From Pontiella desulfatans (lineage in GTDB: Bacteria > Verrucomicrobiota > Kiritimatiellia > Kiritimatiellales > Pontiellaceae): a stretch of DNA of 64,000 bases. Shown here in pieces: positions 4,147 to 28,393 of this stretch. The stretch is from assembly GCF_900890425.1 (NCBI RefSeq), contig NZ_CAAHFG010000004.1, positions 726,330 through 790,329 of the forward strand, in the 5' to 3' direction. A program made the translations under genes and the position numbers. The notes beneath the pieces were generated by a model. That model was given only the letters and a program-made list of their open reading frames with translations. It was not told the origin of the DNA and ran no database searches. Numbering within the stretch: position 1 is the stretch's first letter; each line of letters begins with the position of its first letter.

Positions 4147-7100
4147 TCAATTCGCCATCCGCCCCGTCACGACGAGGTCGGAGCCTTCGAGCTTGCCGAT
4201 GCCGCGGGGATCCTTGCCCCAGAGGTAGAGGCGGAATTCGACGGGCTCCTTCAGCTTTTGCAGCTCCTTGATGCCGCTGAGGTCGGCGATGGCCGGAACG
4301 CCCTGGCCGGAGTGAAAGGTGTGCCCCTTGATTTCGTCATGGGGTTGGATGTCAATTTCGCGGAAGCGGCCGCCGATGCTGTAGCGCAGCTCGAATTCCA
4401 GGGGTTCTTTGCCGAAGTTCCAGAGACCGATCTTCAGCTGGTCGAGCGCGAGCGCCATGTTTTTGCGCGGCTGAATCGTAAAGCCGATGTATTCTTTTTC
4501 ATCGGCCTCGGTGGTTTCCTTCCAGAACTCCTTAGGCATGGCGGCGAGGCCGTCGTTGTTATAGTAGGGATTATCGGTTGGCAGAAATCCTTCGCCGAAG
4601 GAGAGCACGGGTTTTTCGATGGCGCCCATGAAGCGGGTGGCCGCCAGGGTTTCCGCTTTCGGGAGCCAGACGTCGGTTTTTTCCAAGGGTTGGAAATCCC
4701 ATGAGGCGACGGGAATCTGTTTGCCTTCGGGCACGGTGTATTCCACCACGGCGCTCTGCCGTCCGCACTTGAGCGCAACGCTGCCGCTGCCGCTCATGTT
4801 GTCGACCGCTACATCGTAGACCGTGCCGTAGCTTCCTGGTACCGGCTCAACCGACGCCGTGCGGTTGGCGCCCGATGTGCCCGCCACCTGAAGCTCCTGC
4901 AAGTTGCCGCTCGGTAGCGCCACGCGGAAGCGGATCGGATCGGCCTGCGTCTTGGCGACCTGTCCGGGGGCAAGGTTTACGAAGGTCGCATCATCTCTCC
5001 ACTTGAGCCATTCGACATCCTCAAAGACGTAGAGGAAGGTCGAGGCGGGCGGCAGGCCGCGCGCATCCGCGCCGGTCGTTTCGTTTACAGATAAGTTGGG
5101 GGAATAGGTTTTGGCATCAAGTTCAATGCGTTCGACCTTCACTTTGTCGGAATCGAGGTTGTGGTCGGCCGGCATGCCGGTGGTGCGGTAGAGCGTGATG
5201 CCTTTTGCCGAGCGGAAGGGGAGCTGGATCTGAACGGGGCTGAAGCCGTCGCTGTCGGTCTCCGGGTAGCCGTCGACCTTGCGCGAGAGCACAAACAGGT
5301 TGCAGCGGTTGCCGTCTTTGGTGGCATAGGCCGAAACCAGCGGATCGGTCAGCGACTGCACCATCAGGAAGTCGCCGGTTCCCTCGTTGTTGAAGAGCGA
5401 GAGCAGCTTCCACGAGGGATAGGCCTGCCCGCCGTTTTCCATGCGCGCGTGGCTCGTCCAATAGTTGCGGTTGCGCTCGAACGTGAAAAAGTTCTGCAGC
5501 TTGAATCCGAGCAATCCTTGCGCGAGGAAGGCGTCGAGCGTGGCGGTTCCGGCGGCGAGCGATTTCATCGTCTGCGCTTCCTGTTCGACCTGCTCCATCG
5601 TCATGTCCACGCCGTTGAGTCCATTTATGTTGTAGCCGGGGCCACCTTCGTAGGTGCCGAGCGCGGCTTTAACGCCGGCGGCTTTCATCGAGGAGTTGAG
5701 TGTGAGCGCGCGCGGGATGGACGCGCGCTCGGCAATTCCCAGCGCGTCGGAATAACCCTTCGGCCCCGGTTTGGCGGGCGGGGCGCCCTCGTCCCATCCG
5801 CCGTTGTACGCGGCAATCAGCACATGCTCCGAGCTGGGGCTGAAGCGTGCCGCCGCCTGGCCGTAGCCGTTGGTGTCGGTTTGCGATGCCCAGCCGCCCA
5901 GCACAAACTCAAACTTCTCTTCCGCTGTTTTCGACCAGTGCGGGCTGCTGCGGAAGAGGTCGATCACATATTCCTGGAAGAGGCCGTAGACTTCGCCGTT
6001 GATATATTTCCGCCCTGAGGCTTCGTCAACCAGGGTGACGCCGTTGAAGATCCATGGCTTGAAAATCGGGTTCCATGTTTCGTTGCCGACCTCGAAAATG
6101 ATGCGCTCAAATTCATCGAGATAAGGTGCGGCCTGACCCTGCTGATGGCGTTTGAAAGCCCATGGTTTGGCATCGGCGGAATCCTTGGCGGGATCGAACG
6201 GGGCGCACATATATTCCACGAAGCCCTGCCACTCGGTTTCATCCATGCACATTTCAATCTGCAGCCATGGATCCAGCCCGGCCTTTTTCATGATGGCCAG
6301 CTGGTTGGGCAGGGTGTTGAAGCTGTTGGCCTTTTTTCCGCGCCATTCAATGCCGCCCGCCGGATTGGTGAAGCCGTCCATGCTGTAGCCGTGCTCGGTT
6401 TTGATGTGCGCGTGGGAGCGGAAGGCCGACATGCCCGATTCACGGAGCGCTTCGTAGTCCTCCGCCGGATAGTCCATGAAAGCCGTGCCTTTTTCATAGA
6501 CGCGCCAGTTATCGATCCAAATCGTTCCGGGGCCATTGAAGGCCAGCGCCATCAGGCCGACGCCCGCCGCTTCGTCGCCCTGCAGTTTTTCCGCCACGCG
6601 GAATTCGCCGGTATGTTTTTTCCAATCATTGGAAAGCGGATATTCCAGCGGTTGGAAACTATCCTCCAGCGGCCCATCTAAACGGAAGGTCGCCGACGGC
6701 TTTGCGAGGCCGTCATGCTTTGCCCAGAATTCGACCACGTATGTCTTTTCGGGGTCGAGCACGGGATACCAGTTTTGCTTCAGGCCGGCATGGTTGTGTT
6801 TGCGCAGCGCCAGCTCCTCGGAATCCTCCACCTCGATGCGGACGCAGGTGCGGCCGGAGTGTTTCAGCTCCTCGGGCGCGTCGGCGCTGTGCGGCTCCAG
6901 TTTCCAACGGCGGGTCGGCGTATCCTTGAAGTAGGGCTGTTTGATCTGTTCCGGGATGGCGTCGAGCACGCGGTTGCTCATCATCTTGTCGCGGTCAAAC
7001 TCAAGGATTTCGTGGTCAACGAAAATCAAATCGTCGGTCTTGATGTGCTGGGCCGGATCCGCCGGGGAGGTTTCGAGGTAGATATGGTTGCCGCGGTGCG

Positions 7101-21419: not shown

Positions 21420-23114
21420 CTATTTTAGCTTCAGCCGCACAAGCACAATGATGCCTTCGGCTACCATCCAGGCCTGAAGGAGGCTGATGATGGCACCGAT
21501 GCCGAAGAGGAGCCATTGGGCGTTGGCATGGAAGTCGACGAGGTTGATCTTCATGGCCCAGGCGGTCATGGCGATCATGAAGACCATGGGGATTGCGGTG
21601 AAGATGACGGGCACTTTTTTCTTGGCGAGCCATACGGTGATGACGAGCAGGGCGAGGCCGCCAAGCAGCTGGTTGACGGCGCCGAAGAGCGGCCAGAGGG
21701 CGAGCGCACCTTTGCCGTCGCCCCCGCTGGAGAAGGCGAGCAGGAGGGCGGTGGACACGGCGATGAAGGTGGCGGGGTGTTTCTTGCCGAGGGCGGGGAC
21801 GTTGCAGCTGTTGGCGATTTCCGAGACGATATAGCGCTGGAGGCGGGTGGCGGTGTCGAGCGTGGTGGCGGCGAACGAGGCGACGAAGACGCCCATGAGG
21901 GTGAGCACCACTTCCTTGGGAAGCCCAAGCCCTGAAACCATGTTGGCGGCGCCGGTGACGAAGGCGGCGATCTTGGCGCCGAGCCCCTTGGCGGTGGCCC
22001 AGCTGGCGTATTGCTGGTTGAAGGCTTCGACGCCGGTGTAGAGCGTGCCGTCTTTTTCGAGGCCCAGCCCAATGCCGGCGCCGCAGGCGATGATGACAAT
22101 GACGGCGAGCATGCCTTCGAGCAGCATGCCGCCGTAGCCGATGGGCTGCGCGCTGGTTTCGAGGTCGCATTGCTTGGAGGAGGTGCCGGATGAGACGAGG
22201 CAGTGGAAGCCGGAGATGGCGCCGCAGGCGACGGTGATGAAGAGGATCGGGATCAGGTTGGGTGCGCCTTCGGCCCCGAGGTTGGCGACGGGGGCGACCA
22301 TCGGCGGATGCGTGACGACGATGCCGAGCAGCAGCAGCGCCATGGCGATGCAGAGTTGGAAGGCATTGATGTAGTCGCGCGGCTGGAGCAGGACGGTGAC
22401 GGGCAGGGTGGAGGCGACGTAGGCATAGATGAGCAATAGGATTACCCAGATCCCGACATCGCTCAGAAACCCGAGTTCGGGGAGTTTCACGGGCAGGTAT
22501 GCGCCGAGCATGATGGTGGCATACATGAGCACCGTGGCGATGATCCCGAACGTGATGTGCGATTTTCCTTTCTTGTAGACCATGAAGCCGAGCCAGATGG
22601 CGATGGGGAGCTGCAGCCAGACGGGGATCACCGATTCGGGGAAGATGCTGAAGACGGCGGCGATCACCACGCCGAAGATGGCCACGACCAGCCAGAGCGC
22701 GAAAAAGATGATCAGCATGAAGAGCGATTTGACGCGGGGGTTGACGATGTCGCCGGCGATGTCGCCGATGGTGCGTCCTTCGTGGCGCAGGGAAATCATC
22801 ATGGAGCCAAAATCGTGGACAGCTCCCATGAGGATGGAGCCGACGAGGATCCAGACCAGCGCTGGCGCCCAGCCCCAGATAATGGCGATGGCCGGGCCGA
22901 CGATGGGGCCGGTTCCGGCGATGGAGGTGAAGTGGTGGCCGAACAGGACGGTTTTGTCGGTGGCGACGAAATCGATCCCGTCGTGGTGGGTTTCGCTCGG
23001 GCATTTGGCGTTGGGATCGACCTTGAAGATTTTCCGGGCGAGGAAGCGGCCGTAGGTGTGGTAGGCCACGATGTAGAGGACGGCGGCGAGAGCGGCGAGG
23101 ATCAACGAGTTCAT
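21420..23114 (-). CDS. cstA: Carbon-starvation protein CstA family transporter
   Basis: 564 residues from ATG 23114 ([19 protein letters not shown]). Inner-membrane transporter of the CstA/BtsT family (pyruvate or peptide uptake). Signature regions: [44 protein letters not shown] and [13 protein letters not shown]; about 15 membrane spans. The longer frame to 23582 has no support. It lies 46 bases downstream of the four-gene sensor-kinase cluster on the same strand. In E. coli the relative BtsT is controlled by a pyruvate-sensing kinase system, so a sensor/transport link is plausible here. Confidence 0.93.
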
Positions 23115-23160: not shown

Positions 23161-24162
23161 TTAAGCGGACTTCTTTGGGATTTTGCATTCGACCCGGGTG
23201 TTTTTTTCGTTGGTCGAGTTGATGGCGAAGGTGGCGCCGATCTTGGATGCCCTGTAGTGCATGATTGGCAGCCCCATGCCATTGCTTTCGCCGGCGTTGA
23301 AGGGGGTTCCGTTGTTTTCGATGTAGAGCGTTGTGGCATCGGGGTCCTGCTCGACGCCGATTTCGATGCGCGATGGTTTCGCGTGGCGTATGGCGTTTGA
23401 AACGGCTTCATGGACGATTTGGCAAAGGTGATGGTTCTTCCCTTCTTCAACCTCCGTCCAGTTTTCGGGTGAAACCAGTTCCACTTCGACCTGTGAAAGG
23501 TCGGCGAGCTGGTTGACGAGGGTTCGGATGAAGTACTCAAGCCCTGCCTCGCTGGCGGTGTCGGGCAGCGCATGTTTTTCAAGCGTTTCGAGATTGGAGA
23601 TGCAATCTTCGACCACCGCGCCGATGTGCCCTGCTTGCCCCGCTTGGTTGTGGCCGGTGGTTTCGAGATGTTCGGTTAACAGCAGGCTGATGCTGCGCAT
23701 GGCCCGGAGCTCGGCGAGCGGGGTTTCCAGCAAGGACTCGAGAATGTCGGAATATTCCCGTTTTTCGGTTTCCATTAAATGGTGGGTTAATTCCTGGAGC
23801 TCGCTTGTGCGTTCCTTCACGAGATCCTCCAGCGAGTTGTTGAGCAGGAGGTAGCGGTCGCGCGTGGTTTTCAGCAGGGCGGCGCTGTGCCCGAAGATGA
23901 GCTGGGAGCCGAGGCCGAAGGGGTTGATGGTTTCGAAGAGGATGGTTCCTCCGTCGGTGTGGTAGAGGAGCACGGCAAAGTGGTAGGGGATGGTTAGGGC
24001 AACGGTGGAGATCACCCCCTGGTGCCGGCCCAGCCAGCCGGCTAGCATCGCGAGTGGAATGGAGGCGAGAAACACGGTGATACTCAACGCAGGGAAGAGG
24101 AAAAAGCTGAACCCGATATAGGCCAGCCAGGCTCCCAACAGAATGGCTTGGCTTTTCTTCAT
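23161..24162 (-). CDS. Sensor kinase paralogue with ATP-binding boxes but no phospho-acceptor His
   Basis: 333 residues, last of four overlapping paralogues. N-terminal membrane region (several hydrophobic segments up to ~65), helical linker ~95-130, DHp-like region, HATPase domain. At the position of the acceptor His (ELHDG in the sisters) it has ILESL, i.e. Glu142. The ATP-binding part is the well-kept one: N-box HEAVSNAIRHAKPSRI with the Mg-binding Asn and G-box NGMGLPIMHYRASKIG as in NarX/DesK-type kinases; the D-box reads ENNGTP, Asn instead of Asp. It probably supplies kinase activity to its sisters. ATG 24162 overlaps the previous stop (ATGA). Confidence 0.8.
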   Translation of the reverse strand: MKKSQAILLGAWLAYIGFSFFLFPALSITVFLASIPLAMLAGWLGRHQGVISTVALTIPYHFAVLLYHTDGGTILFETINPFGLGSQLIFGHSAALLKTTRDRYLLLNNSLEDLVKERTSELQELTHHLMETEKREYSDILESLLETPLAELRAMRSISLLLTEHLETTGHNQAGQAGHIGAVVEDCISNLETLEKHALPDTASEAGLEYFIRTLVNQLADLSQVEVELVSPENWTEVEEGKNHHLCQIVHEAVSNAIRHAKPSRIEIGVEQDPDATTLYIENNGTPFNAGESNGMGLPIMHYRASKIGATFAINSTNEKNTRVECKIPKKSA

Positions 24163-25166
24163 GCCGCCAGGGTCCTTTCGGGGTGCGGGGCTTCGAAGAC
24201 GAGGCTCTCGGTTTTGGGGCTGGTGTGCATGATTTCCATGGTGCCTTGGATCTGAAGGAGGCGATAGTCAATAAGCCGCCCTTGTGTTGAATCCGCCATC
24301 TGCCGCGCAATCGACGTTCCATTGTAGCTGATTGAAAGGGTAATGGAGGATGGGGTGGTGTCAATGCCGATGTAGATGGTCTTGCTTTGCGTCTGGTTGA
24401 GTATGAGGAGCAGGGCGTCTTGGCAAATCCGGAAACACTGCAATGCGGTCTCGTGGGAGACCTCGGGTTCGCAGAAGGATGCAACCGTGATGCGGACTCC
24501 CCTCAAATCCTCGAAACCTGCCGCCAGTTCGCGCAGGGCGGGAAGCAGACCGACCTCCGGGATCTGAACGGGGAAGAGGGAGCGGGCCGCCCGGCGGACG
24601 AGGTTGTGGGTTGTTTGGGCCCGGTTGCTCAGGGCCCGCGCCATTTCGGCACATGGGCAGTGTTCCGAGCAGAGTTGTTCGGCGAGGGATGCAACATAGA
24701 GCTGGATGCCGGTGAGTTGCTGGCCAATCCCGTCGTGGAGCTCCTGCCCAACCAGGGTCCGCATGCTTTCCGAGTGTTCCAGGAGTTTCCGCGCAACGGC
24801 CGATAGCTCCAGGTTTCTTTTGCTGACGGTTTGGTCGAGGCGCTCATTGGCCTCTTTGAAGGCTTCCAGGTTTTGCCTAAGGGTTCCGATGAATAGGACG
24901 GCAACGATATATATGGCGACTCCCGGCAGTTTGGCCATGGGATAGCGGGCGAGGTCGGCATGGATTCCGCTCAAGAGGAGGGCGTTGAAGAAGAGGGCGG
25001 GGATAATCAGCAGGAGCCCGCGCGTGCGTCCATAGAGCCATGCGCCGGTTCCCAGGAGCGGTATGGTTGGTATGAACGTGTTCTCGTGCCAGACCGGGAA
25101 CATCGTGAAGGAAAAGGCAAAGAAGAAAAGCCATGCCAGGCAATAGGGCAGGGTTGTTGAACTCAT
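24159..25166 (-). CDS. Sensor kinase paralogue with His box, degenerate ATP-binding domain
   Basis: 335 residues. Hydrophobic N-terminus (~5-105), linker coiled coil, HisKA_3-like box GQELHDGIGQQLTGIQLY with His ~144, then an HATPase-like domain that has lost key residues: N-box RICQDALLLILNQ has Leu where Asn is needed, the D-box is SYNGTS, and the G-box is replaced by GRLIDYRLLQIQG. So it can probably be phosphorylated but not bind ATP normally. A Cys cluster (CSEHCPC) at ~165-171 is not in the sisters. Overlaps both neighbours by four bases. Confidence 0.8.
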   Translation of the reverse strand: MSSTTLPYCLAWLFFFAFSFTMFPVWHENTFIPTIPLLGTGAWLYGRTRGLLLIIPALFFNALLLSGIHADLARYPMAKLPGVAIYIVAVLFIGTLRQNLEAFKEANERLDQTVSKRNLELSAVARKLLEHSESMRTLVGQELHDGIGQQLTGIQLYVASLAEQLCSEHCPCAEMARALSNRAQTTHNLVRRAARSLFPVQIPEVGLLPALRELAAGFEDLRGVRITVASFCEPEVSHETALQCFRICQDALLLILNQTQSKTIYIGIDTTPSSITLSISYNGTSIARQMADSTQGRLIDYRLLQIQGTMEIMHTSPKTESLVFEAPHPERTLAA

Positions 25167-26170
25167 GCGGCCATCCCCCCCGGCGTTTTGGGAATTGCGA
25201 TATTCAGCGTTTGGATCTGGTTGTCGCCGGTTAGGATTTCGATGGAGCCATTCACCTGCATCAGCCGGTAGTTGATCAACCGGGCTTCGTTCGAGCCGTC
25301 CCGGATGGCCGCGGCGGGGTTTCCATCGTGCTCGACCGAGAGTTGGAGTGCGGAGGGGAGCACCGAGACCCCGATGCCGATCCGCTGGGCGTGGGACCGG
25401 TCGATGACGAGCAACGCGGTTTCCTGGCAGATGCGGAAGAGTTGAAGGGCCGTGGCCGGGGGGATCGAGCTGATGTCGCCTTGGGTATTGATGCCCACTT
25501 CAATATTCTTGATAACGCGCAGGCAGGAGGCCAGCTCGTCGAGGGCCGGGCGGAGGCCGACTTCCCGGATCTGCATCGGGTATAGAGTACGGCAGGCATG
25601 GCGGATCTTGTTGTGGACGATTCGTGAGCGGGTGGTGAGTGAATAGGCCAGCGATGCGCCGACGTTTTGTTCCGCGGCCAAGCGGTCCGCCAGCGAGGTG
25701 GCGTAGAGCTGGATGCCCGTGAGCTGCTGCCCAATGCCGTCGTGCAGCTCCTGTCCGCGGGAGATTCTGAGGGTTTCCAGGTGTTCGATCAGTTTTTGGG
25801 TGAGGTTGTCTAGTTCCCGGGTGCGTTCCAGGACGGCAAGGTCGAGCCGGGTGTTGACCGCGCGGATGGACTCCAGGCTATCCTTGAGCGTCCCGACGAG
25901 GGCGATCGCGGAGAGGTGGATGACCGTACCGATGACTCGGTCGGTGTAATAGATGTATTCATCCGCAAAATATTCGAACAAGGCGATTTGGTGAATGAGC
26001 ATGGGCAGCAAAAGCCACAGGCCGGTCGACCGGCCGAAAAGCCAGCTTCCAACCCCCGTGAATAGGATGGCAGGGAAGCCCACGTTGCTGTTGAAGCGGG
26101 GAAACAGTACGAACGTTGCCACGGCGTAGAGGGCCCAGGCGACGATGAAGAGGATCGTTCGTGCCTTCAT
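25163..26170 (-). CDS. Sensor kinase paralogue with His box, degenerate ATP-binding domain
   Basis: 335 residues from ATG 26170 (MKARTILFIVAWALYAV); the frame extends to 26434, but that would overlap the upstream sister by 260 bases and lacks homology. Several N-terminal membrane spans, linker helix, box GQELHDGIGQQLTGIQLY (His kept), then RICQETALLVIDRSHA with Leu in place of the N-box Asn, EHDGNP at the D-box and ARLINYRLMQVNG at the G-box. Very close to the 26167-27177 copy, indicating recent duplication. Confidence 0.82.
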   Translation of the reverse strand: MKARTILFIVAWALYAVATFVLFPRFNSNVGFPAILFTGVGSWLFGRSTGLWLLLPMLIHQIALFEYFADEYIYYTDRVIGTVIHLSAIALVGTLKDSLESIRAVNTRLDLAVLERTRELDNLTQKLIEHLETLRISRGQELHDGIGQQLTGIQLYATSLADRLAAEQNVGASLAYSLTTRSRIVHNKIRHACRTLYPMQIREVGLRPALDELASCLRVIKNIEVGINTQGDISSIPPATALQLFRICQETALLVIDRSHAQRIGIGVSVLPSALQLSVEHDGNPAAAIRDGSNEARLINYRLMQVNGSIEILTGDNQIQTLNIAIPKTPGGMAA

Positions 26171-27177
26171 CCCGCGGTCTCTTCCAGGGTTTTGGGGATC
26201 GAAACCTTCAGGGATTCGAGCCGTTCGCCTTCGCGCCGGGATTCCATGCTTCCATGGATCTGTGCCACCCGGTAGTCGATCAACCTCGCTTCCGTCGAGT
26301 TGGCCAGTGTGTCGGCGGTAGGAATTCCGTCGTGCACGACCGCGAGTTCGAACGAGGAGGGGAACGATGCAACCTTGATGCTGATCCGTTTTGCGCGGGA
26401 TCGGCTGATCACCAGCAAGGCGGTTTCCTGGCAAATCCGGTAGAGCTGGAGGGCGGTTGAGGCAGGGACGGAGTCCACGTCGCCTACGGTTTCGGCCGAC
26501 GCCTCGACGTTTTGATTGAGCCGTAGGCAGGAGGCCAGCTCATCGAGTGCCGGGCGGAGTCCAACTTTCCGGATCTGCATCGGGTAGACGGTGCGGCTGG
26601 CATGGCGGATCTTGTTGTGGATGATCCTGGAGCGGGTGGTGAGCGAATAGGCCAGCGATGCGCCGCCGTTTTGTTCTGCGGCCAGCTGGTCGGCCAGCGA
26701 GGTGGCGTAGAGCTGGATGCCCGTGAGCTGCTGCCCAATGCCATCGTGCAGTTCCTGTCCCCGGGAGATGCGGGCCGTTTCCAAGTGCTCGATGATTCTC
26801 TGGGTTAGGCGGCCGAGCTCCTCGGTACGCACCAGAACGGCTTTGTCCAGCCGTTCATTGGCCTCCTTGATGCCGTCGAGGTTGTTGCGTAGCGTCCCGC
26901 TTAAGCCCACCAGCGTGATGTAGAGAAAAGGCCCCACCGCGCGTTCTTCGAAATGGGCATAGTCGGCGGCGAAGGTTTGGTAGAGCAGGAATTGATGGGC
27001 GAGGGCCACAAAGCCGATGCAAAAGCCAACCGTCCGGCCAAACAACCAGCCCCCTAGCCCCAGCAGGATTACCGAGGGAATCAAAACGTTGGTATTTAGG
27101 TATGGAAATAGGCCGAACGTAAAAACAATGTACGCTATCCAGGCGATGGTATAGAGAATGGTTGTCCGATGGCGCAT
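26167..27177 (-). CDS. Sensor kinase paralogue with His box, degenerate ATP-binding domain (first of four)
   Basis: About 336 residues from ATG 27177 (MRHRTTILYTIAWIAYI), chosen because the sisters start at the matching residue; ATG 27198 would add seven. Membrane region to ~110, helical linker, His box GQELHDGIGQQLTGIQLY, then RICQETALLVISRSRA (N-box Asn replaced by Leu), VHDGIP, and ARLIDYRVAQIHG. It opens the cluster of four genes joined by ATGA overlaps and is divergent from gcvT. No response regulator is in the window. Confidence 0.8.
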   Translation of the reverse strand: MRHRTTILYTIAWIAYIVFTFGLFPYLNTNVLIPSVILLGLGGWLFGRTVGFCIGFVALAHQFLLYQTFAADYAHFEERAVGPFLYITLVGLSGTLRNNLDGIKEANERLDKAVLVRTEELGRLTQRIIEHLETARISRGQELHDGIGQQLTGIQLYATSLADQLAAEQNGGASLAYSLTTRSRIIHNKIRHASRTVYPMQIRKVGLRPALDELASCLRLNQNVEASAETVGDVDSVPASTALQLYRICQETALLVISRSRAKRISIKVASFPSSFELAVVHDGIPTADTLANSTEARLIDYRVAQIHGSMESRREGERLESLKVSIPKTLEETAG

Positions 27178-27183
27178 TCGACT

Positions 27184-27286
27184 GCCGCAATTCCTCATTT
27201 TTTGCCGCTCACTTTATTACGCTTAGTTCCATATGGGAAGAATTTCGTCGGACTTCCGCTAATAAGACGAAATTCCAATTGCGGCA
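27184..27286. promoter_or_regulatory. Nested inverted repeats in the kinase/gcvT divergent region
   Basis: Outer arms GCCGCAATT (27184-27192) and AATTGCGGC (27278-27286); inner arms GAATTTCGTC (27240-27249) and GACGAAATTC (27266-27275). All pairs are perfect. The outer left arm lies just in front of the kinase ATG at 27177. No glycine-riboswitch features are evident. Confidence 0.45.
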
Positions 27287-27316: not shown

Positions 27317-28393
27317 ATGAATAAAACTCCGCTGCACACGCAGCATCAAGAGCTTGGCGCACGCATGGGCGAATTTGGCGGTTGGGATATGCCGATCCAA
27401 TATGCGGGCATTCTCGATGAACACACCCAGACCCGCACAAAGGCTTCCGTTTTCGATATTTGCCACATGGGCGAGTTCGAACTCCGCGGCCCAACCGCCC
27501 AGGCGGATCTCGAAAACCTGCTCACCTGCAACATCCGCTCGCTGGCCGTCGGGCAGGTGCGCTACGGCTTCATGCTCGACGACGATGGCGGAACCATCGA
27601 CGACCTCACCGTCTACCGCATGGATGCCGACCGCTACATGCTCGTCGTCAATGCCGGCACCGCCGAAAAGGATGCCGCCTGGATTAAAAGCCGCATTTGC
27701 GAAACCACCTCCTTTTCCGACCTCTCGGCCGCCCTCGCCAAACTCGATGTGCAGGGGCCGAAATCCCGCGATGTGCTTGAAGATGTGCTCGGATGCCCGT
27801 TGCCCGACCTCGGCTATTTCCGGTTCAACGAACTCGAGTCCTGCATCCTCAGCCGCACCGGCTACACCGGCGAATGGGGCTATGAAATCTACCTGCCCAA
27901 CGCCGCCGCCGGCCCCTTGTGGGAAAAGCTGGTTGCCCACGGCCTTTGCGAACCCGGCGGCCTGGGCGCGCGCGACACGCTCCGCCTCGAAATGGGCTAT
28001 TCCCTTTACGGCCACGAACTCTCCGCCGCCCGCTCCCCCGCCGTCACCTCGCGCGGAATGTTCATCGACATGGAGAAGGATTTCATCGGCAAGCAAAACG
28101 TCGCCGCCGACCTCGACGATCCCGAAGTCCTGCTGGTCGGGCTCAAATTCGATTCCAAACGCGCGGCCCGGGAGCACGACAAGATCTACTACGAAGACAT
28201 CGAAATCGGCGAGGTCACCAGCGGCTCCGTTGCCCCCAGCCTCGGTGTTGCCGTCGCCATGGCCTTCGTCGAACCCGAATTCGCGGATTATGGCCGCACC
28301 CTCGAAGTCCAGATCCGCAACAAGCGCTTCCCCGCCGAAGTCGTCGATCTCCCGTTCTATAAAGAAGGAACAGCAAGAAAGTTGAACCACTAG
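27317..28393 (+). CDS. gcvT: Glycine cleavage system T protein (aminomethyltransferase)
   Basis: 358 residues. Transfers the methylene group from aminomethylated lipoyl-H protein to tetrahydrofolate, releasing ammonia. Motifs: TPLHTQHQELGARMGEFGGWDMPIQY at the start, VFDICHMGEFEL, SRTGYTGEWGYEIY and GLGARDTLRLEMGYSLYGHEL, all diagnostic of GcvT. The last codons (AAC CAC TAG) lie inside a 75-bp dispersed repeat that fills the gap to gcvPA. gcvH, usually next, is missing. Confidence 0.96.
   Translation: MNKTPLHTQHQELGARMGEFGGWDMPIQYAGILDEHTQTRTKASVFDICHMGEFELRGPTAQADLENLLTCNIRSLAVGQVRYGFMLDDDGGTIDDLTVYRMDADRYMLVVNAGTAEKDAAWIKSRICETTSFSDLSAALAKLDVQGPKSRDVLEDVLGCPLPDLGYFRFNELESCILSRTGYTGEWGYEIYLPNAAAGPLWEKLVAHGLCEPGGLGARDTLRLEMGYSLYGHELSAARSPAVTSRGMFIDMEKDFIGKQNVAADLDDPEVLLVGLKFDSKRAAREHDKIYYEDIEIGEVTSGSVAPSLGVAVAMAFVEPEFADYGRTLEVQIRNKRFPAEVVDLPFYKEGTARKLNH

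Follow-up and report, generated by a model that had tools for sequence, protein, structure and literature searches.

Histidine kinases usually act as homodimers of two complete chains. In Rhodobacter sphaeroides, neither CheA3 nor CheA4 autophosphorylates alone, and the ATP domain of CheA4 phosphorylates CheA3, which also has phosphatase activity (PMC3591291). Split, bifunctional kinases can in theory yield switch-like responses, and 1556 of the 42417 HisKA proteins in SMART have no recognised ATPase domain (PMC3591291). The Hik36/Hik43-Rre6 system of Synechocystis contains a kinase function spread over two proteins together with one regulator (PMC7656254). The kinases Rv0600c and Rv0601c of Mycobacterium tuberculosis both cooperate with TcrA (PMC9274095). 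The FasB/FasC-FasA system of group A Streptococcus comprises two neighbouring sensor kinases for which heterodimerisation has been proposed, together with phosphorylation of His246 of FasC, termed a pseudokinase, by the kinase domain of FasB (PMC12675982). Phosphorylation in trans has also been described in engineered DesK heterodimers (PMC8301901).

A cluster of four genes (A, B, C and D) in Pontiella desulfatans probably encodes, to judge from its sequence, a conserved histidine kinase of the HisKA_3 (NarX/DesK) class that requires two different subunits and in which D would phosphorylate A, B or C in trans. The cluster lies on the minus strand of the window, the whole 64,000-nucleotide stretch analysed, on contig C4 of the 8.66-Mb genome. 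The genes A (26167..27177), B (25163..26170) and C (24159..25166) encode acceptor-type subunits of 336, 335 and 335 aa, respectively; an alternative, longer start of A at 27198 is possible. Gene A encodes a membrane part, a DHp domain with His144 and a degenerate CA domain, and B is its sister. Gene C is located immediately upstream of D (23161..24162), which encodes the catalytic-type subunit of 333 aa. Each junction of the tandem reads ATGA, as the sequence-only reading had noted. A cstA-like transporter gene (21420..23114, minus strand) follows 46 bases past D, probably shares its transcript and is regarded as a non-essential part. The divergent neighbour gcvT (27317..28393, plus strand) serves as the constant marker of synteny. 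For a sensor domain in the membrane part of A-D, Pfam gave no match above its cut-off; the cstA-like neighbour hints that the signal sensed through this part concerns pyruvate or carbon supply, but 8 of 20 loci gave no cstA match.

The H-box (LHDGIGQQLTG) is retained in all three acceptor-type proteins A, B and C, with the acceptor His at His144 (codon 26746..26748), His143 (25742..25744) and His144 (24735..24737), respectively, all on the minus strand. The N-box Asn is replaced by Leu in all three (Leu255, Leu254 and Leu254). Both features had been read correctly from the sequence at the outset, as had the retained ATP-binding motifs of D described below; of the G-box, taken to be lost from A, B and C, the second element is indeed gone from all three, but the first has left a DG remnant in A and B. 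D retains EAVSNAIRHA with the N-box Asn256 (23395..23397, minus strand) and NGMG with Gly295 and Gly297, its G1 and G2 boxes running from Asn283 to Gly297 (23272..23316, minus strand). A HisKA_3 DHp domain with the phospho-acceptor His is present in A, B and C and not in D. In Pfam, A, B and C match HisKA_3 only and D matches HATPase_c only. No protein of the cluster carries the HATPase_c N-box and G-boxes together with an acceptor His; the set is complete only as a pair, so that at sequence level the acceptor and ATP-binding functions are placed on separate proteins, as in a split kinase.

The residue of D at the acceptor position is not the Glu that had been proposed to replace the His. The alignment is gapless from the conserved RT..EL..LT stretch through the end of the H-box, and the His column of D is therefore Leu145 (23728..23730, minus strand); Glu146 occupies the next (Asp) column and Glu142 lies three residues upstream. 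Among the 20 D-type sequences the acceptor column holds Leu, Ile, Cys or Tyr and never Glu, which makes a phospho-mimic unlikely. The following column holds Glu in six, Asp in four, Lys in four and other residues in the rest, so an acid is not conserved there either. The suggestion that Glu142 acts as a phospho-mimic is rejected on the register and on these sequences. In the superposition of D on DesK, an offset in residue range would bring Glu146 near His188, but the column of Glu146 is the one in which no acid is conserved.

A protein search gave Pontiella sulfatireligans and other Pontiellaceae and Kiritimatiellales as relatives; several of the genomes compared are incomplete. D was found in 20 of 29 family genomes, the window's own included and one (G014) counted from fragments at contig ends only, with orthologues 24-47% identical. 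An acceptor-type gene is located immediately upstream of D in 18 of the 19 fetched D loci; in G014 the two types are on separate contig fragments. In the alignment columns, the acceptor His is present in all 28 A/B/C-type proteins and in none of 20 D-types, and the Gln of the DxxxQ motif in 27/27 and 1/20, respectively. The N-box Asn is present in 20/20 D-types compared with 2/26 A/B/C-types (G016 and G020, both without the G2 motif). The G1 Asn, the G1 Gly and both Gly of G2 (GxG) are found in 20/20 D-types, whereas no acceptor-type contains the G2 motif. The invariant Asn in the G1 box of D-types stands where intact kinases of the genus carry Asp; Asn at this position also occurs in some otherwise intact relatives. 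Scans of the members against Pfam gave HisKA_3 matches in 26/26 acceptor-types and one weak match in 19 catalytic-types, and HATPase_c matches in 19/19 catalytic-types and five weak matches in 26 acceptor-types. The sequence-only reading had set absence of the pattern from every related genome as a ground for refutation; the complementary pattern was instead found in 20 diverged genomes, and because of this recurrence it is beyond chance.

The two types are also constrained in different domains. Mean pairwise identity of the DHp domain is 0.44 in acceptor-types versus 0.26 in D-types, and that of the CA domain 0.26 versus 0.40. In a control family of complete HisKA_3 kinases, mostly from the same genomes, both domains are conserved (DHp 0.81, CA 0.61). 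The DHp domain of D has lost the polar acceptor and active-site residues, and its hydrophobic pattern is in register with that of the acceptor-types (r 0.68; best shifted register 0.275), as would be expected of a module that dimerises but has no acceptor chemistry. Values of dN/dS between orthologues are 0.09-0.33, and pairwise values between within-genome duplicates are higher (0.41-0.43). Because of the crossover in constraint, the DHp register and the dN/dS of orthologues, both types appear to be functional and specialised. Their evolutionary distances are correlated after control genes are taken into account (partial r 0.79); this correlation and the retained DHp register are consistent with physical association of the two types. 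The AlphaFold models of A and D (mean pLDDT 86 and 82, respectively) resemble DesK and the CA domain of VraS. The CA domain of D superposes on that of VraS with a Z of 19.6 and an rmsd of 2.2 over 131 residues at 32% identity, and for the CA domain of A the same fold is still predicted at 16% identity. The proposal that acceptor and ATP roles are divided among the paralogues, with D as the catalytic one, is strongly supported by genus-wide conservation, this domain-wise crossover and synteny.

A class-wide search detected full-length D only in this genus; matches outside it span the DHp-CA part only, and those inspected are complete kinases. In a tree from a quick search with moderate support, the acceptor and catalytic types cluster together, separately from the complete kinases (SH-aLRT 92), and the acceptor-types form one group within the tree (support 81). 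The simplest account would be a single duplication, with reciprocal loss, that predates the divergence of the sampled lineages: the gene of an ancestral homodimeric membrane kinase would have given rise to tandem copies, each of which shed what its sister retained. The ancestral arrangement comprises one gene of each type (1+1), not 3+1. The 3+1 arrangement claimed earlier is present in the window's species but is special to it, most relatives being 1+1; likewise, one catalytic subunit serving three sensors is a derived state of this lineage, and the conserved unit is one acceptor and one catalytic subunit. Later re-duplications of the acceptor gene appear to have produced A and B in this lineage and extra copies in G019, G020, G002 and G011; D is single-copy in every genome. 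Remnants of additional acceptor-type genes that retain only transmembrane segments are found at locus L064, 7657-8073 (G002) and upstream of position 7079 of locus L066 (G021), so acceptor-type copies have been lost as well as gained. A separate open frame at L246, 955-1530 (G024) encodes a protein of at most 192 aa that is similar to the membrane part at the N-terminus of the kinases and has no kinase domains.

Of the 20 loci, 18 have a divergent gcvT next to the pair, 16 have folE in the vicinity and 12 contain a cstA match; in the 8 loci where no such match was found, some are cut by contig ends. No adjacent regulator was recognised among the recurring neighbours of the 20 loci, and no Rfam element was found near the operon at the gathering threshold. 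Between gcvT and the first acceptor gene, the intergenic DNA contains a CCGCAAyyGGAATTTGATCTTATTAG-like block (about 27240-27280 in the window) that recurs in most of 17 genomes and could be a promoter or operator.

The host genome encodes 26 other HisKA_3 proteins, most of which lie in large open frames and have a NarL-type regulator gene close by. An orphan NarL-type regulator, unlinked to the kinase pair, is encoded on contig C1 of the same genome (4344328-4344984; 219 aa). Orthologues of 59-75% identity in 22 relatives bring the number of genomes that have it, the window's own included, to 23. It occurs in 20/20 genomes with the pair and also in G003, where an acceptor gene beside gcvT is cut by the contig end, and in G009 and G024, which are 85% and 59% complete, respectively; it is absent from six genomes with neither pair member. 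G018 (93% complete) has no HisKA_3 protein other than the acceptor subunit and no full NarL-type regulator other than the orphan. In G007, G015, G023 and G026, the sole other HisKA_3 kinase adjoins its own regulator. By elimination, the orphan is thus the best candidate in several small relatives, and it is likely to be the output of the pair, a pairing to which co-occurrence and elimination point without amounting to proof. The match in presence and absence may largely reflect shared ancestry, and the correlation of regulator and pair distances after control genes is weak (0.24-0.34).

The proposed mechanism builds on this division of motifs: A, B and C retain the phospho-acceptor His and the phosphatase motif DxxxQ and have a degenerate ATP pocket, and D retains its ATP pocket and a hydrophobic core in the dimerisation helices but has no acceptor. 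D would use the DHp bundle to pair with A, B or C, and its CA domain would phosphorylate the His of the partner in trans. In a C:D dimer with DesK-like geometry, the ATP site of D would lie at the His of C, and C would take the transfer and phosphatase roles. The phosphorylated acceptor subunit would hand phosphate to, and remove it from, the single orphan regulator. In the window's species, A, B and C would be alternative acceptor/sensor subunits with D as their common catalytic partner. On balance, the system may well be a natural obligate heteromeric sensor kinase whose single catalytic subunit works with any of several interchangeable acceptor/sensor subunits, the latter expanding independently across species, so that reciprocal degeneration of a homodimer has given rise to combinatorial signalling.

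Transfer between the two types could also occur without a mixed dimer, if D homodimers phosphorylated acceptor homodimers intermolecularly. CheA4 phosphorylates a CheA3 that is without a dimerisation domain (PMC3591291), which provides a precedent; the in-register DHp core of D speaks against separate homodimers, as does the action in trans of the HisKA_3 relative DesK within a mixed dimer (PMC8301901), and this arrangement is considered unlikely. It is quite improbable that D is an allosteric, pseudokinase-like regulator and that A-C are phosphorylated by other intact kinases and act as phosphotransfer or phosphatase proteins. Such a role would fit the retention of DxxxQ in the acceptor subunits, the large number of further HisKA_3 proteins in the window genome and the known pseudo-sensor kinases that modulate partners, such as a ChrS variant (PMC9491836). 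However, every tested ATP-site position is conserved in 20/20 D-types and CA is the conserved domain of D, which would be needless for pure allostery, and in G018, with its single HisKA_3 protein, no other kinase of that class is available to phosphorylate the acceptor.

Independent decay of tandem kinase copies would account for the truncated extra copies in G002 and G021 and for the raised dN/dS of within-genome duplicates. The same reciprocal pattern is nevertheless repeated in 20 genomes, orthologues are under purifying selection and type-appropriate motifs are kept in every sequence; decay is contradicted by the comparative motif, dN/dS and domain-identity data and is hardly credible. The two-subunit kinase with phosphorylation in trans is the preferred explanation; the invariant G1 Asn of D-types, the N-box Asn of two acceptor-types, the weak distance correlation of the regulator and the incompleteness of several genomes count against it.

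The Pontiella paralogues appear to be mutually dependent, and their sequences appear to record clearly a duplication and the complementary losses that came after it. They offer a natural system, replicated over many species, for trans phosphorylation and for the loss of autonomy by paralogues, and a shared catalytic subunit raises the question of whether a cell adds sensors cheaply in this way. The phosphatase motif that switch-like behaviour would require is kept in the acceptor subunits.

The HisKA_3 kinases DesK, VraS and NarX share the DHp and CA fold of the Pontiella proteins, but each natural protein carries both the acceptor and the ATP pocket, unlike A-D. Rv0600c and Rv0601c presumably represent a kinase whose ATP and acceptor domains lie on separate proteins through gene fission and not through reciprocal loss between full-length paralogues. 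FasB presumably belongs to another, AgrC-like, kinase class. The Fas kinases are likewise neighbours, but FasB, unlike D, still has candidate acceptor His residues, the regulator FasA is within the fas locus whereas the Pontiella candidate is unlinked, and the passages considered describe no amplification of one subunit, unlike that of the Pontiella acceptors (PMC12675982). CheA3 and CheA4 are likewise split, but whole domains rather than motifs are missing, the acceptor is a P1 domain and the proteins serve chemotaxis in a cytoplasmic cluster (PMC3591291). Hik36 and Hik43 resemble the Pontiella pair in their division of function and differ in that a single CheA homologue is divided between two genes far apart in the genome, without full-length paralogues (PMC7656254). 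A literature search for adjacent complementary kinases returned nothing further. Split kinases are therefore already known, and what is new here is the reciprocal loss in full-length HisKA_3 paralogues, its genus-wide occurrence and its repeated one-sided expansion.
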